A stretch of 45,243 nucleotides of DNA from a virus. This document shows, piece by piece, positions 9,686 to 40,222 of the stretch. Both the position numbers and the translations under genes were made by a program. The notes under the pieces were generated by a model. The model had not been told where the DNA came from. It did not search any database and was given only the letters and a program-made list of their open reading frames with translations. Position 1 is the first letter of the stretch. Each line of letters begins with the position of its first letter. The stretch is from positions 1 to 45,243 of IMG/VR virus record IMGVR_UViG_3300043448_000556; one strand, 5' to 3'.

Positions 9686-10438
9686 TTAGGCAGCGCGCTT
9701 TGCTTCTGCTTTATCTCGTTTACTAGCTCCGTCATAGTCTGCAACTTTAATGCCTCGACGAGTTAACAGTGTTTTAAGGCCGCGCTCTGTTTTATCAACA
9801 GCAGCTGCAATCTCTGCAACAGTCATTTGATGAATCTTGTTACCTAGTGAAGTAACAGGATCTACGCTCTCTTTGGCATAGCTGTTCTTTTGCGCAGGAA
9901 TCTTAGCAATTTGACCCTTGCGAGTAAGGCTAAGTGCTTTACCACGCACACTGGCAACAGTCTTGTTAAGTGCAGTGGCAATATCCTCAATAAAAGCACC
10001 TTTTTCAGCCATTGCAATAAACTTAGCTTCTTCACTGTCGGTGTATGTTCTGGCAACTTCAACCTTTTCAGCAGGCTTAACACTACCAGTAAGTTCAAGA
10101 GCAAGTAATTTACCTTGGATTTGCTTGGCGGTAAACTTGCCATCCATAAATTCTTCAGCGATTTGTTTATAGGTAAGTTCACCAGCATTGCTAACTACAA
10201 ACTCTGCAAGCTCAGCGCCTTCATCTTCAGTAAATGCACTAGTTTTTTCTTTGGCCATGCTAGCAACTTCTACTTCAAGTTGACGTAGTTTGCTAGCCAC
10301 ACTACGAGCAGTAAAATCGCCGCCAAGTGCTTCAGCAGCATGTTCAACAGTAGCAGCACTAACAGGACGTTGTGTACCAACTAGTTTCATAAGTTGGTCA
10401 ACAGTAGCGTCAGACCATTTTTTAGCTTTTTCAGTCAT
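9686..10438 (-). CDS. multi-repeat SANT/HTH-like DNA-binding protein, putative regulator
   Basis: 250 residues with at least three tandem tryptophan/aromatic-led helical repeats of SANT/Myb flavour (starting KWSDATVDQL, AFTEDEGAEL, RTYTDSEEAK). Each ends in a recognition-helix-like segment (ARSVASKLRQL, AKQIQGKLLAL, VASVRGKAL). A C-terminal HTH (TVAEIAAAVDKTERGLKTLL) and a basic tail (DKAEAKRAA) follow. Related in style to proteins at 13215-13589 and 36036-36341. Probably a phage transcription or nucleoid protein; the strong terminator behind it suggests high expression. Function is inferred. Confidence 0.6.
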   Translation of the reverse strand: MTEKAKKWSDATVDQLMKLVGTQRPVSAATVEHAAEALGGDFTARSVASKLRQLEVEVASMAKEKTSAFTEDEGAELAEFVVSNAGELTYKQIAEEFMDGKFTAKQIQGKLLALELTGSVKPAEKVEVARTYTDSEEAKFIAMAEKGAFIEDIATALNKTVASVRGKALSLTRKGQIAKIPAQKNSYAKESVDPVTSLGNKIHQMTVAEIAAAVDKTERGLKTLLTRRGIKVADYDGASKRDKAEAKRAA

Positions 10439-11189
10439 TAATATGTTCTCTTAAAAAAGTATTTAAGTTTGTGATAATTTTTATGCCGAGTTGTTCGGCT
10501 TTTTTACGTTTTGTACTACTTTTATCTTCTTCGTCAACTAAATAGTCCGTAGTTTTTGTTACAGTTTCGCTTATTCTGAATCCGTGCTCTGTTAGTTGCT
10601 TGTAGGCTTCGGCCTTAGTTTTATAAGAAGATAGTTTGCCTGTAACACATACTATAGGTCCGGCGGTATTTGCCACAGGTGTTTCACTGCGAAAAGAGAA
10701 TGGTAAGAACTCTCTAATTTCTTTGAAATCTAGTTCTAACCAGCCTAGGAGATTTTGTGTTACTTTATCTCCTAGTCCAGCTTGTTTACAAGTTTCTAGG
10801 TTAATTTCGTCTATATGACTAACTACATTGGCAATTTTAGTGCTAGCTGTGTTACCTACTAACGGAATACTGAAACTTGCTAGTACCTGATTAAGTGGAG
10901 CACTACGACTTTTATCAATTTCTGCTAAGAGCTTTTCTGCTACTTTTATACTACTTAGTAAGTCACTGACTTCATCAAGCTCTAAGTAGTATAACTCAGT
11001 AATGTCTGCTAGCCCTAGTTTTTCAATAGTCTTTGCACCCATACCCTTGATGTTCATAGTTTTGCAAAAGTGTTCTACACGCTTGCTAAGCTGGGCATCA
11101 CAAGCCTGGTTGCGACAAAACAACTGATCGTTAACCAGTTCTAGTTTATAGCTGCAACAGGGACAATGTGTGGGTATTTCAATCTTCAT
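10431..11189 (-). CDS. NAD-dependent DNA ligase, C-terminal subunit (Zn finger, HhH, BRCT)
   Basis: 252 residues corresponding to the C-terminal part of LigA. A four-Cys zinc finger (CPCC and CRNQAC) is followed by helix-hairpin-helix segments (IKGMGAKTIEKLG and later VGNTASTKIANV), then a C-terminal BRCT domain (VCVTGKLSSYKTK to TDYLVDEED). The catalytic half is a separate upstream gene at 11275-12231. It has its own promoter (11214-11242), so subunit ratio could be set independently. Split NAD ligases are known in phage T5. Confidence 0.9.
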   Translation of the reverse strand: MKIEIPTHCPCCSYKLELVNDQLFCRNQACDAQLSKRVEHFCKTMNIKGMGAKTIEKLGLADITELYYLELDEVSDLLSSIKVAEKLLAEIDKSRSAPLNQVLASFSIPLVGNTASTKIANVVSHIDEINLETCKQAGLGDKVTQNLLGWLELDFKEIREFLPFSFRSETPVANTAGPIVCVTGKLSSYKTKAEAYKQLTEHGFRISETVTKTTDYLVDEEDKSSTKRKKAEQLGIKIITNLNTFLREHIND

Positions 11190-11213
11190 GTGTATTAATT
11201 AACCTAAGATATT

Positions 11214-11242
11214 ATTATACAGTATTAACCAGTGTATTACAA
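11214..11242 (-). promoter_or_regulatory. sigma70-like promoter for ligase C-terminal subunit
   Basis: Minus strand TTGTAA (11242-11237), 17 bp, TATAAT (11219-11214), in the gap between the two ligase genes. Confidence 0.7.
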
Positions 11243-11274
11243 GCTAAAATTTTTGTTGCCTTGGCAGCAGAAAT

Positions 11275-12231
11275 TTAGGCATCAACCTTGTGTAGTATGC
11301 AAGGTATAATTTCACCAGCTCTAGCAACTGCCACTGTATCGCCAATCTGTAGGTCTAGTGCTTCGATAAACCCAGGATTGTTGAGTGTGGCTCGGCTTAC
11401 TAATGCGTCACCGATCTTAACTGGCTCTAGAATAGCTGTTGGTGTTACTTTGCCAGTTTTGCCTACATTCCATTCTACGCCTAGCAATTTAGTTTCTACA
11501 TGAGCCGCGCGTTCCTTACGTGCATATGCGCCGCGTGGATGTTTGCTAGTATAGCCCAACTGTTCAAACTGATGATTATTATTCAGTCTAACAACAATGC
11601 CGTCACTAGGATAAATCTTAGCAAGGTCTGGCTCTAGTACAGTGTTAAATCCTAGTTGCTTAAGCACACGCATATCACCAGACCAAGTGGGGTCTAAGTT
11701 TGGTGTTATTTGATAGGCAAAAAACTCAATTGCTCTGGTTTTGAACTCACTGAGGTCTTTTAAGTTTAGGCTACCTGCTGCATAGTTACGGCTATTCTCC
11801 ACATGTAGTGGAGCTACAATCTCGCCAGTAACTTGCACAGTTACATTACCAAGATTAATCTTTAGCGGCACTAGGCTACCGTGCTCGTACATTTTATCTG
11901 TAATTAGTTGACCCTCAACGCCATCACCACGAGTAAGTGCCTGCACTAGTACTCCGTCTACGTATAACAGGCTAATAGCCGCACCGTCTAGTTTGATACT
12001 GGTGGTAACGTCTAGGCCTGCTAGTGGATCGGCTTTACCCTCATCTTCATAAAACTTTTGCAGGCTATACATGCGGTGCGTATGCTTGTCTTTTTTGCCG
12101 TGTACTACTGCACCAACTTTGTTATAGCCGCAACCCTCTGCTAGCATGTCAAACATGTAATCTGGAATAGTGGGCGTACCGGCATAGTAGGCCTCACTTG
12201 CTCGGTCTAATAGTTCGTGTAATTTATTCAT
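11275..12231 (-). CDS. NAD-dependent DNA ligase, N-terminal catalytic subunit
   Basis: 318 residues. The N-terminal NMN-binding Ia-like segment (YYAGTPTIPDYMFDML) is followed by the nucleotidyltransferase motif SIKLDGAA (adenylated Lys in KxDG), VTGEIVAP, YPSDGIVVRL, the KYP-like HPRGAYARK region, and an OB fold ending at GDTVAVARAGEIIP. It stops before the zinc finger, which is encoded by the next gene 85 nt away, so the enzyme is split at the OB/zinc-finger junction. Own promoter upstream at 12239-12267. Confidence 0.92.
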   Translation of the reverse strand: MNKLHELLDRASEAYYAGTPTIPDYMFDMLAEGCGYNKVGAVVHGKKDKHTHRMYSLQKFYEDEGKADPLAGLDVTTSIKLDGAAISLLYVDGVLVQALTRGDGVEGQLITDKMYEHGSLVPLKINLGNVTVQVTGEIVAPLHVENSRNYAAGSLNLKDLSEFKTRAIEFFAYQITPNLDPTWSGDMRVLKQLGFNTVLEPDLAKIYPSDGIVVRLNNNHQFEQLGYTSKHPRGAYARKERAAHVETKLLGVEWNVGKTGKVTPTAILEPVKIGDALVSRATLNNPGFIEALDLQIGDTVAVARAGEIIPCILHKVDA

Positions 12232-16021: not shown

Positions 16022-16231
16022 TCAGTCTGCCCAGTTTTCGTCTTCGGTGCTTTTGCTGTCATCGTCATCTTCTACAAAATCACTCATTACTACAAGACTG
16101 ACTCCAGTGTGACTAGCTAGCTCTTCAACTAGAGCTGCGATCTTGTGTAGGAGGTCAACGTGATCATAGTGATCATCTCCATCACATTCAAAACTAACAC
16201 TCATGCCTGCATGTTTAAACTCTAGTTCCAT
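16022..16231 (-). CDS. hypothetical acidic protein, 69 aa
   Basis: Not recognised. Acidic His/Asp cluster (ECDGDDHYDHVDLLHK), a helical centre and a very acidic C-terminus (VEDDDDSKSTEDENWAD). AAAGGATAAAT upstream of ATG. It lies directly downstream of the tmRNA gene on the same strand, and the acidity suggests a nucleic-acid-mimic or protein-binding role, unproven. Confidence 0.6.
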   Translation of the reverse strand: MELEFKHAGMSVSFECDGDDHYDHVDLLHKIAALVEELASHTGVSLVVMSDFVEDDDDSKSTEDENWAD

Positions 16232-16255
16232 ATTTATCCTTTGGTTGTGTTGTGT

Positions 16256-16583
16256 GGCGGTTGTTGGCTAATAAGGTCAACCGCCTAAACCCCAGCCTAG
16301 CTTATGCTGCTAAGGCAAATACCTCATCGTTGGCATTTATTTTGTTTGCGTCTACGGCCAGCTAGTGCTAACCCTACGGCTTCTGCATTGCCGAGTTGTC
16401 TGCCACAATACTCTTTACCCCGTCGAAACCATGTCTGGCCCATCAGAAGTATACTGCACTAGCCAGTTGAATACAGCCGACCAGTCTTCCTTATCAGTGA
16501 AGTGCAATATACTTCTGGTGGACCAGGCGGGAGTCGAACCCGCGTCCGCAGTACTTTTCTATTAGCTTCATACAACTATAACT
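16256..16583 (-). ncRNA. ssrA: circularly permuted (two-piece) tmRNA
   Basis: The minus strand first gives the 3' tRNA-like half: T arm GCGGGTTCGACTCCCGC, acceptor strand CTGGTCC, then ACCA (end at 16516). After a 74-nt intervening segment (16442-16515) the 5' half begins at 16441: GGGCCAG followed by ACATGGTTTCGACGGGG. GGGCCAG pairs with CTGGTCC and has the G3-U70 wobble that marks alanine acceptance. The intervening segment folds on a 14-bp helix (16446-16459 with 16502-16515). The resume codon GCA follows GTAGAC; the tag at 16349-16305 reads ANKINANDEVFALAA, then TAA. A final hairpin lies at 16256-16285. Two-piece tmRNAs are known from alphaproteobacteria, cyanobacteria and some betaproteobacteria. 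Outer ends are approximate. SmpB would have to come from the host or lie outside the window. Confidence 0.95.
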
Positions 16584-16658
16584 TGGTGCTGAATATCGGA
16601 TTCGAACTGATGACCTACCGCTTACAAGGCGGTTGCTCTACCACTGAGCTAATTCAGC
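16584..16658 (-). tRNA. tRNA-Thr(TGT)
   Basis: Acceptor GCTGAAT/ATTCAGC, discriminator A, encoded CCA, anticodon loop CTTGTAA. Directly followed by the tmRNA acceptor piece. Its first bases overlap the stop codon of the preceding gene. Confidence 0.93.
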
Positions 16659-21900: not shown

Positions 21901-22791
21901 CTATATACCTCGTAATTTTTTTAAGAAAAAGCCCAGGCCCTGACAAAATCTTTTTATAGTAGCATAACTAAATCTATGCTTAGTGCCCCAACTAATTATC
22001 TTGAATATAAAATCTATGTTTAATAGTCCTAAATATCGGTTTACCTCATATGCACCATATCTAGTATTAATATTTTCTGTGGAAGCCATATTTTCTAATA
22101 TGTCACATACCTGTTTATTAGTTAAGTAGCCTCTAGCAAAACTTTTAGCTAAAAGGCCTCCGTTGCCTATTATGCTATGAGTAGAGAACCCATTTACAAT
22201 ATAAGTACCATCGCCTGTTAACCATAAGTTGTATACAAGTTTTCCTGTAGCTGGTGTAATTATTGGCCTATCTATTTTTTTAAGCTTACCTAACCATGGA
22301 TGTAGGCTATAGGTAAGTTCCGGATCTGGAGTACTAAGTTCATTATTAATAAACAGCGGATGGTTAATAGTAGCAAATGGCTTTAATTCTGGTGTTGGGC
22401 TGTACAGGTATTTACTTATAACGTCTATACCTTGTTCTACAAAAACCACTTTATTTACTGTAACTTTATCTTTACTTAGTACTAGATCTCCAACTTGTAC
22501 TTTACTAATTGGCTTGTACGTGCTATCCGCCATTAAAACCATAGAATTTGCAGTAAAACAAAAACCACTTCCGGTACCATCGTCCCAGACTACTGCAGCA
22601 GGTTGTGCTAATGCTGCAAATGTAGCACTACTAAGGCTAACCTTTCCTACTAGTTGCATGTACTCTAGCTCAGTATGAAAATTTAAATTACTTAAATAAG
22701 CGTATGGATTGTCAATAGCAGCATTAATTGTACTAGATTCTCCAATAGCAATAGTACCTGTGGATCCTTTAAGTAGAAAGGTTTTGGGCAT
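21901..22791 (-). CDS. Hint (hedgehog/intein-like) domain virion protein
   Basis: 296 residues. The N-terminal about 75 residues look structural. From residue about 78 a Hint domain begins with Cys (FCFTANSMVLMADSTYKPI, then VQVGDLVLS), block B TINHPLFIN with its Thr and His, and a C-terminal block LVYNLWLTGDGTYIVNG. It does not end in the intein HN plus nucleophile; the frame continues about 80 residues. Autoproteolysis at the Cys, rather than splicing, is therefore more likely. It sits between a peptidase-like tail gene and fibre-like genes. Hint domains occur in some phage tail proteins. Confidence 0.8.
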   Translation of the reverse strand: MPKTFLLKGSTGTIAIGESSTINAAIDNPYAYLSNLNFHTELEYMQLVGKVSLSSATFAALAQPAAVVWDDGTGSGFCFTANSMVLMADSTYKPISKVQVGDLVLSKDKVTVNKVVFVEQGIDVISKYLYSPTPELKPFATINHPLFINNELSTPDPELTYSLHPWLGKLKKIDRPIITPATGKLVYNLWLTGDGTYIVNGFSTHSIIGNGGLLAKSFARGYLTNKQVCDILENMASTENINTRYGAYEVNRYLGLLNIDFIFKIISWGTKHRFSYATIKRFCQGLGFFLKKLRGI

Positions 22792-38320: not shown

Positions 38321-38570
38321 TGGCGAGATTGTAGCAATACCTATCCAACTCAATCAGCGCGTTAAAATTGGCTGCTACTATCAGCCGCCACAGCTAAACT
38401 ACTTAGACAGGGATCAGCTATGGATACAAGATGTATATGTGTTTAAGCAGATTCCTTGGTATATGATTAAAAACAGATTTGAACGCTACCTACTGTACGC
38501 CGCACTATATGGTGCTATAGTAGTAATGCTAACCATGATTGGCCGACACTGGCTAGGAGCACCACATTGA
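38301..38570 (+). CDS. small membrane-anchored protein, 89 aa
   Basis: GTG start overlapping the previous gene by 20 nt. Soluble N-terminal 60 residues and one C-terminal transmembrane helix (YLLYAALYGAIVVMLTMIG). No family recognised. Confidence 0.6.
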   Translation: MAHIVRDGEIVAIPIQLNQRVKIGCYYQPPQLNYLDRDQLWIQDVYVFKQIPWYMIKNRFERYLLYAALYGAIVVMLTMIGRHWLGAPH

Positions 38571-38764
38571 ATAAACAGTTAGTAGAAGGCTACAAGCGCA
38601 GGAGCTTTGCTAGATTTATGCGTAATCAAACTAACTATGAGTTGCTAGTGCAACTTGTAGTAGATGATTGCCTAGAGATTATTGAAACTAGTAAGCATCC
38701 CGGCCGATTAGCTATTGCCAAACTTATTAGAGAACACTACGGCTATGAGAGTATTCAAGTATAA
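38567..38764 (+). CDS. hypothetical protein, 65 aa
   Basis: TTG start with AGGAGCACCACA upstream, overlapping the previous stop by 4 nt. Basic first 20 residues (GYKRRSFARFMRNQTNYE), helical throughout. Not recognised. Confidence 0.55.
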   Translation: MNKQLVEGYKRRSFARFMRNQTNYELLVQLVVDDCLEIIETSKHPGRLAIAKLIREHYGYESIQV

Positions 38765-38948
38765 CGAGTATGAGGATACCGAACCCAGATTAATTACCGA
38801 GCAAGAAATACGTGCAGAGTACTGGCCACATTGGTATAGTCGCATGTGTAAAAAGTTTGGTAAACTGGAGGTTGATAGTAAGTTTACATTTGAGGATTGC
38901 CTAAACGACTGGGTTATTGTCAACTGGGCTTGGGAAGTAAAGGAATAA
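38745..38948 (+). CDS. hypothetical protein, 67 aa
   Basis: ATG 38745 (MRVFKYNEYEDTEPR); a TTG start at 38715 is possible. Trp-rich C-terminal half (YWPHWYSRMCKKFGK, WVIVNWAWEVKE). Not recognised. Confidence 0.55.
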   Translation: MRVFKYNEYEDTEPRLITEQEIRAEYWPHWYSRMCKKFGKLEVDSKFTFEDCLNDWVIVNWAWEVKE

Positions 38949-39268: not shown

Positions 39269-39297
39269 TTGAATGAGTTGGTTAAACCCTGTATAAT
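39269..39297 (+). promoter_or_regulatory. promoter of giant RNA 1
   Basis: TTGAAT (39269-39274), 17 bp, TATAAT (39292-39297), followed by ATTATTTATAG. Confidence 0.85.
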
Positions 39298-39613
39298 ATT
39301 ATTTATAGTCAGTGAGGAAAGCAAAGTCTGACAAGACTGACCGCTTTAAATGACATTTTGCCACACTAGATAAAAGTCTTAAACTTCACAAAATGTGCAT
39401 TGTAGCGACCACTGACTGTACTACCAATCTCGGCCATACCCAATGGTAGAGCGCGATAAAGCTAGCGTTAGGGGCTTTAGGTTAGTTACTAGACCTCCCA
39501 GTAGGCGATACATCTACTGTGGTAAAACGGTAACGGGGACTACCTTACCCCGACTAAGGTATGGACAGAGTAACTGCTCAAGTTGGGGCCACTGGGTAGT
39601 GGTAGCCGACTAA

Positions 39614-39712
39614 ATCCTCTGATGAGCTGGTGCAACTCCAGCGAAACCCAAACCCACAAGGTTGACGCTGTAGCCTTCAACTGCTACACCTTCCGCGGTT
39701 TAGGGTAAGGAT
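39614..39712 (+). ncRNA. type I hammerhead ribozyme inside giant RNA 1
   Basis: Core CTGATGA (39619-39625), stem II GCTGG-tgcaact-CCAGC (39626-39642), GAAA (39643-39646). Stem III is ACCC/GGGT (39646-39649, 39703-39706) extended by AAACC/GGTTT (39650-39654, 39697-39701) with one bulged A. Stem I is ATCCT/AGGAT (39614-39618, 39708-39712). All core bases are present; the cleavage-site triplet is GTA, so cleavage is predicted after A39707. Stem III is capped by a further hairpin TGTAGC/GCTACA. Confidence 0.9.
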
Positions 39713-40193
39713 AATAAGGCCCGATAAGCTTGCTGTCACATTTCCCTAGTGGCTAGGCGGCCAATGTCGAGGCGGGTGAAAGCCCCGTCAACTAAAATAT
39801 GCGAGTGATGGTGGACTACGCATAAGGTTATCTGAGACCTGCGGACTGTCGTCCAAGAGTAAAAAGACAATATGATCCAGTTTAGGGACTGGTGTCATAT
39901 TCAAGCACACTAGAGATAAGCAGGAACAGGTCTAGACACTGGTCGCCTCGTCAAGTGTGTTTGAATATGGTAGCAATATCATAACACGTGGCTATCAGCG
40001 TGTATAAAGGCGGCGAGCCTTCAACGAAGTAGGGTAGCGGGATTTTGAACATCAACCTCGAAAGTGTTGAGCCGGATTTTGTAACCGGTAGCCATACAAA
40101 AGCTGATTAGGGTTCGATACAGGCATTTCCGGACTTGTACTGTAGCGCCCCAAAGGTGAGGAATAGTAATCAGCTTTTGTATGGTTTTTCTTT

Positions 40194-40222
40194 GGCAGCC
40201 ACTTGGCTGCCGTTTTCTTTTG
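40194..40222 (+). terminator. intrinsic terminator of giant RNA 1
   Basis: GGCAGCC-actt-GGCTGCC (40194-40211) followed by GTTTTCTTTT. Confidence 0.88.

Follow-up and report, generated by a model that had tools for sequence, protein, structure and literature searches.

Predicted cut of a hammerhead ribozyme in a large phage RNA coincides with the position of transfer RNA ends in related phages

What would a self-cleaving ribozyme be doing in the middle of a large phage RNA? This is the question raised by a locus in the IMG/VR viral record IMGVR_UViG_3300043448_000556, which was analysed as a whole (45,243 nucleotides, referred to here as the window), and in which an earlier note, made from the sequence alone, had placed a complete hammerhead ribozyme inside a giant RNA. 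We know of no purpose for most bacterial and phage hammerheads. In 2011, Perreault et al. (PMC3088659) described hammerheads of phages and prophages, some of which lie in series beside genes; phage-type hammerheads of the present kind cleave in vitro and in E. coli, and processing has been suggested as their role in phage transcripts (PMC3088659). The reason for the association between hammerheads and phages was still given as unknown in a 2023 paper (PMC10085705). For the present locus, comparison with related phages makes it rather probable that a co-transcriptional ribozyme cut forms the 5' end of the RNA lying downstream, for which the relatives would use transfer RNA (tRNA) processing. 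The elements on which this answer depends are the following, in window coordinates.

39269..39297, + strand: sigma-70-like promoter TTGAAT-17-TATAAT, with a start expected near 39304; hexamers kept in homologues
39304..39613, + strand: 5' RNA domain, conserved in four lineages; 81 predicted pairs, of which 19 are changed on both sides
39610..39613, + strand: CUAA, 5' side of the stem I internal loop, common to such phage hammerheads
39614..39712, + strand: type I hammerhead ribozyme, predicted cut after 39707; from descriptor, alignment and covariation
39651..39699, + strand: structured arm within stem III, with a tip hairpin at 39669-39688; from covariation, including a second RNA family
39708..40220, + strand: 3' RNA piece after the predicted cut; from lineage conservation and the terminator
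39720..39900, + strand: conserved 3' core, 12 distinct alleles; adjoins tRNA or tRNA-like ends in most relatives not of the hammerhead lineage
39743..39749, + strand: invariant UCCCUAG; its complement is the hairpin loop UUUAGGGA at 39881-39888, also invariant
40092..40184, + strand: long terminal hairpin module, absent from one related lineage (L019)
40193..40220, + strand: intrinsic terminator (hairpin 40193-40212)

The earlier note had claimed that every invariant core base of the hammerhead is present and that its three stems pair, and each of these elements was found where it had placed them. Stem I consists of AUCCU (39614-39618) paired with AGGAU (39708-39712), and the core of CUGAUGA (39619-39625) and GAAA (39643-39646), between which lies stem II (GCUGG/CCAGC, 39626-39642) with its closing pair G10.1-C11.1. 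Stem III opens with A15.1-U16.1 as ACCC..GGGU and continues as AAACC/GGUUU beyond a bulged A. The cleavage triplet GUA, which conforms to NUH, ends at 39707, the position after which the note had also put the predicted cut. The sequence therefore carries what defines the class, namely the CUGANGA and GAAA core, the 10.1-11.1 pair and A15.1-U16.1, and with stem I as the open stem, the other two being closed, it is of type I, as had been proposed; all three stems are supported by covariation. The CUAA preceding stem I is likely to contact loop II. The unconstrained minimum-energy fold of 39600-39725 is the hammerhead fold. A descriptor with the full core constraints matches once in the window, while any match at all was obtained in 2 of 1500 dinucleotide-shuffled windows, and none of the 1500 had stems I and II both of at least 5 bp.

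One check suggested in the note gave a different outcome, as no Rfam hammerhead model matched the window hammerhead at its gathering score. The best was Hammerhead_3, which has the wrong permutation, with 23.2 bits against a gathering score of 48.5, presumably because of an arm of about 50 nt in stem III. The gathering score is a database cut-off and does not define the class, hammerheads being defined by their chemistry and structure. It is nevertheless what could be cited in favour of a chance resemblance to a hammerhead, an explanation that is ruled out by the shuffles and the covariation, is further opposed by the conservation, and to which we give next to no credence.

Pattern and protein searches found a hammerhead at the same locus in three further phage lineages (L019, L020/L021 and L022/L005), all of which keep the promoter, the 5' domain, the ribozyme and the 3' core. 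Stem I is identical across the four lineages and stem III is paired in all of them, while stem II occurs as GCUGG/CCAGC, GCCAC/GUGGC and, in L019, UUCAU/AUGAU. The cleavage triplet and all catalytic bases are intact in the four lineages and also in a second RNA family, described below. A covariance model was built from eight sequences, which score above 95 bits by construction; outside this training set, it scores 49.7 bits for L010 (a 234-kb contig), 40.6 for L163 and 34.5 for L203. Among 11 distinct aligned matches, 20 of the 23 pairs have changes on both sides, and the covariation score is 0.587, compared with 0.167 in shuffles (0 of 500 as high) and at most 0.123 in slid versions; the 11-sequence alignment was fitted to the model and is biased towards the structure, but a direct check was also made on the strands of the eight sequences.

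The hammerhead lies in the middle of a non-coding RNA of about 0.9 kb with a promoter and a terminator of its own. The pieces of roughly 405 and 510 nt given in the note follow from the promoter-like site, whose -10 hexamer ends at 39297, and from the terminator hairpin at 40193-40212. No listed open reading frame (ORF) of at least 80 amino acids overlaps 39304-40020, and the four alleles of the RNA differ by insertions and deletions that are incompatible with any reading frame. An Rfam search of the large RNA (up to E 10) matched no family. Folding z-scores, which are -5.7 for the 931-nt region and -3.0 and -4.7 for its pieces, were not relied on as evidence for the large RNA, because neighbouring control stretches of the window score similarly (-4.2 and -2.3). 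One control stretch, 38400-38900, itself has a fold much more stable than its shuffles (z -4.2).

What the cut may be used for is suggested by the RNA on its 3' side. The 3' core is present in 8 further distinct alleles (L001, which is Limnohabitans phage DC31, L036, L059/L064/L096, L070, L081, L094/L135, L141/L143 and L142), and 10 pairs of its consensus are changed on both sides across the twelve sequences. These were collected with the stricter of two core patterns, the looser one having mostly matched an unrelated repeated stretch in isolate prophages; no copies were found in the cellular genome contigs scanned with the core pattern. A tRNA directly precedes the core in L001, L081 and L094; in L141 and L142, the preceding element is an elongated tRNA that Rfam recognises (37-42 bits). 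The distance from the tRNA or tRNA-like 3' end to the CCCG of the core is 7-13 nt in seven of the eight further alleles, and from the predicted ribozyme cut to the same CCCG it is 12 nt in the window lineage, so that the cut and the tRNA ends share a position. At this distance, tRNA processing would make an end of the core RNA in the relatives. In L141, a tRNA-Met also begins where the last helix of the core RNA ends, and tRNA processing could therefore free both ends. UCCCUAG and the loop UUUAGGGA are invariant in all 12 alleles and form a plausible candidate kissing loop, within or between molecules, for which invariance is no proof.

The loci of these relatives have further features of their own. 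The elongated tRNAs measure about 111 nt, carry a long insert in the region of the anticodon and lie at L036 6677-6787 (-), L141 8487-8597 (+) and L142 219-330 (-), positioned between a tRNA-Arg and the core RNA. L036 and L059 also contain a tRNA-like element, GGACAA..TTGTCCACCA, with an odd middle. A hammerhead hidden in this element (CTGATGCTGATGCGAAAC) was considered and rejected on inspection, as it lacks core A9 and is not followed by an NUH. In the tRNA-linked loci L001, L036, L059, L094 and L141, next after the core RNA come a Shine-Dalgarno-like AAGGAG and a gene, whose product in L001 (3258-4070, directly downstream of the core) has DUF7277 and DUF7275 and has homologues in the other four.

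The stem III arm links the window hammerhead to other large RNAs. In 114 of the 144 distinct hammerheads among the collected loci, the stem III loop is only 3-5 nt long, while the arm in the window bears two additional helices. Equivalent arms, with strands that differ yet still pair, occur in L175, L228, L250 and L251, and also in L258, which together belong to another family of large RNAs, seen as long non-coding regions in phages and called the second family here. The arm being kept in two large RNA families suggests a role beyond closing the stem. In L258, the hammerhead directly follows the end of a predicted tRNA-Glu. The second family, with the same extended hammerhead and a predicted cut before AGGACGAAA, was seen in L175, L228, L250, L251, L255 and L258, and its downstream part contains repeated motifs of the ACCCUAA type, to which the UUAGGGU strand of stem III is complementary. 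The same extended hammerhead also lies within dense tRNA arrays, between tRNA-Leu and tRNA-Ala, in the phage contigs L010 (3354-3456) and L015 (5925-6030), of 234 kb and 332 kb, respectively. A further hammerhead, at about 5600-6250 in L151, lies between tRNAs in 1.7 kb of non-coding sequence that may represent another large RNA.

Taken together, these data can be accommodated by the following course of events. The transcript of about 0.9 kb would start at the promoter of the unit and stop at its terminator, and once the polymerase had moved past 39712, the type I hammerhead would fold and cut co-transcriptionally after A39707. The 5' piece (about 404 nt) would retain the body of the ribozyme and end in a 2',3'-cyclic phosphate, and the 3' piece (about 510 nt) would begin with a 5'-OH at AGGAUAAUAAGGCCCG, as expected from the established chemistry of hammerheads. 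We infer the cleavage, its timing and its purpose, the main use probably being to give the 3' RNA a defined 5' end, with the conserved core 12 nt further on; in related phages, tRNA 3' processing would create the equivalent end of the core RNA. The comparison of loci suggests that the ribozyme replaces tRNA processing for making this end. To judge from the homologues, the 3' piece is probably an independent RNA, and what the note envisaged as a self-cut two-piece RNA may just as well be a transcript that yields two RNAs. A circular product was considered, and the single copy of the ribozyme in the unit speaks against it; no RNA ligase for rejoining the pieces was found among the window proteins scanned, which covered part of the ORFs. 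A broader proposal, quite possible and put forward here with reserve, is that there is a class of large modular phage RNAs in which the junction of a variable 5' domain and a conserved 3' core is a slot for an element that forms ends, which may be a hammerhead, a tRNA or tRNA-like element, or a tRNA with a hammerhead directly behind it (L258, of the second family). Self-cleavage and tRNA processing would then be interchangeable ways to achieve a single maturation step, with the enlarged stem III arm coupling the ribozyme to the RNA that hosts it.

Several observations weigh against a cut that stands in for tRNA processing. L019 has a U.U mismatch at 10.1/11.1, beside the core, and its predicted fold can pair the core GAA within a shifted stem II. 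For L036 and L059, the likeness of the elements to tRNA was judged by inspection only (acceptor pairing, T arm and CCA), and Rfam does not recognise them. In L070, what precedes the core is an ORF and not a tRNA, and the 3' side extends to a permuted transfer-messenger RNA (tmRNA). Several of the tRNA-type alleles are closely related and not fully independent, and as phage tRNA clusters are often near large RNAs, adjacency alone is weak; the argument lies in the narrow spacing.

The ribozyme could also be active and yet be ordinary punctuation of a phage transcript, with no special tie to its host RNA. Viral contigs commonly contain this variety of hammerhead, for the most part within short intergenic gaps, two contigs (L173 and L207) have about nine each, in series with genes between them, and hammerheads are known in prophages (PMC3088659). 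The one in the window, however, is not intergenic but interior to a single promoter-to-terminator unit, a second large RNA family retains its enlarged stem III arm, and its predicted cut coincides with tRNA ends in relatives; we consider such punctuation unlikely, without dismissing it. The departure of L019 at 10.1/11.1, as well as the elaborate and conserved arm, would suit a hammerhead that is mainly a structural or regulated domain, cutting slowly or only upon release of stem III, for example by a CCCUAA/UUUAGGG exchange with the 3' core. Indeed, the stem III strands ACCC(U)AAA/UUUAGGGU are similar to the invariant core segments UCCCUAG/UUUAGGGA, which makes an alternative pairing possible. 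For a purely structural role, the triplet and the catalytic bases would be needless, yet they are intact in four lineages and in the second family, and we see rather little chance of this being the main function. It is also conceivable that the ribozyme serves the 5' RNA by trimming its 3' end, the 3' piece then being a by-product or something separate: a type I hammerhead stays on the 5' piece, and the 5' domain was found only together with the hammerhead. This we hold to be improbable, as the 3' core recurs without the 5' domain beside tRNA ends, and is thus the widely kept part. With the covariation, the unit kept in three further lineages and the core starting near the predicted cut here and near tRNA 3' ends in relatives, a hammerhead that would cut a large phage RNA in two, as first noted, is the best-supported reading, and the maturation of the 3' RNA is the use of that cut which we favour.

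Some other features of the window were also noticed. At 16211-16608 (-), there is a permuted two-piece tmRNA with the tag ANDEVFALAA, adjoining a tRNA-Thr; the permuted tmRNA of L070, right behind the conserved core RNA, is similar, with the tag ANDEVYALAA. An NAD-dependent DNA ligase is encoded at 10431-12231 (-) as two ORFs, each matching a separate PHROG family. The product of 21901-22791 (-), beside an NlpC/P60 protein, has a weak Hint-domain match below the Pfam cut-off; it may be an intein or some other protein with a Hint domain.

Both hammerheads and giant RNAs are already known from phages. In the open-access literature searched, which leaves many journals outside, we found no report of a hammerhead inside such an RNA, nor of a ribozyme and a tRNA occupying one slot; the single paper there to mention GOLLD (a giant phage RNA) as well as hammerhead ribozymes is about drawing software. 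A motif in a large 2017 catalogue (10.1093/nar/gkx699), outside that literature, may overlap with the present RNA. With the known type I hammerheads of phages and bacteria (PMC3088659; Rfam clan CL00010), the window hammerhead shares the core, the three stems, the open stem I, the NUH triplet and the phage location. It differs from them in lying inside a single large non-coding RNA and not between protein genes, and in its conserved stem III arm of about 50 nt, with scores below the Rfam thresholds. GOLLD, ROOL and other Rfam families were rejected as the identity of the large RNA for lack of a match: the GOLLD model did not match the window RNA up to E 10, or L070, L094 and L001 up to E 5, and the ROOL model did not match the window RNA. 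The likeness to GOLLD is thus one of layout, without detectable homology, and comprises a conserved 3' region, a less conserved 5' one, a phage location and nearby tRNAs; GOLLD sometimes has tRNAs in its linker (PMC12286853), where the RNAs described here have a tRNA or a ribozyme at the junction. ROOL, of unknown function, is likewise a large phage RNA often near tRNA islands (PMC12286853), but no ribozyme is described for it in the searched text of that paper, from which the word hammerhead is absent. For the hammerhead, the comparison with tRNA-linked relatives yields a specific and testable job, the maturation of the 5' end of a conserved RNA, and with it a handle on the mature form of a large phage RNA, a kind of transcript whose boundaries are otherwise guessed. 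A further parallel is tRNA punctuation, in which RNAs are released by tRNA processing, as in mitochondria. In the relatives, a tRNA or tRNA-like element bounds the core RNA on the 5' side, and L141 has one on either side, whereas the window lineage has a self-cleaving ribozyme at this boundary; if the proposed role is true, hammerhead and tRNA would be natural substitutes for each other.
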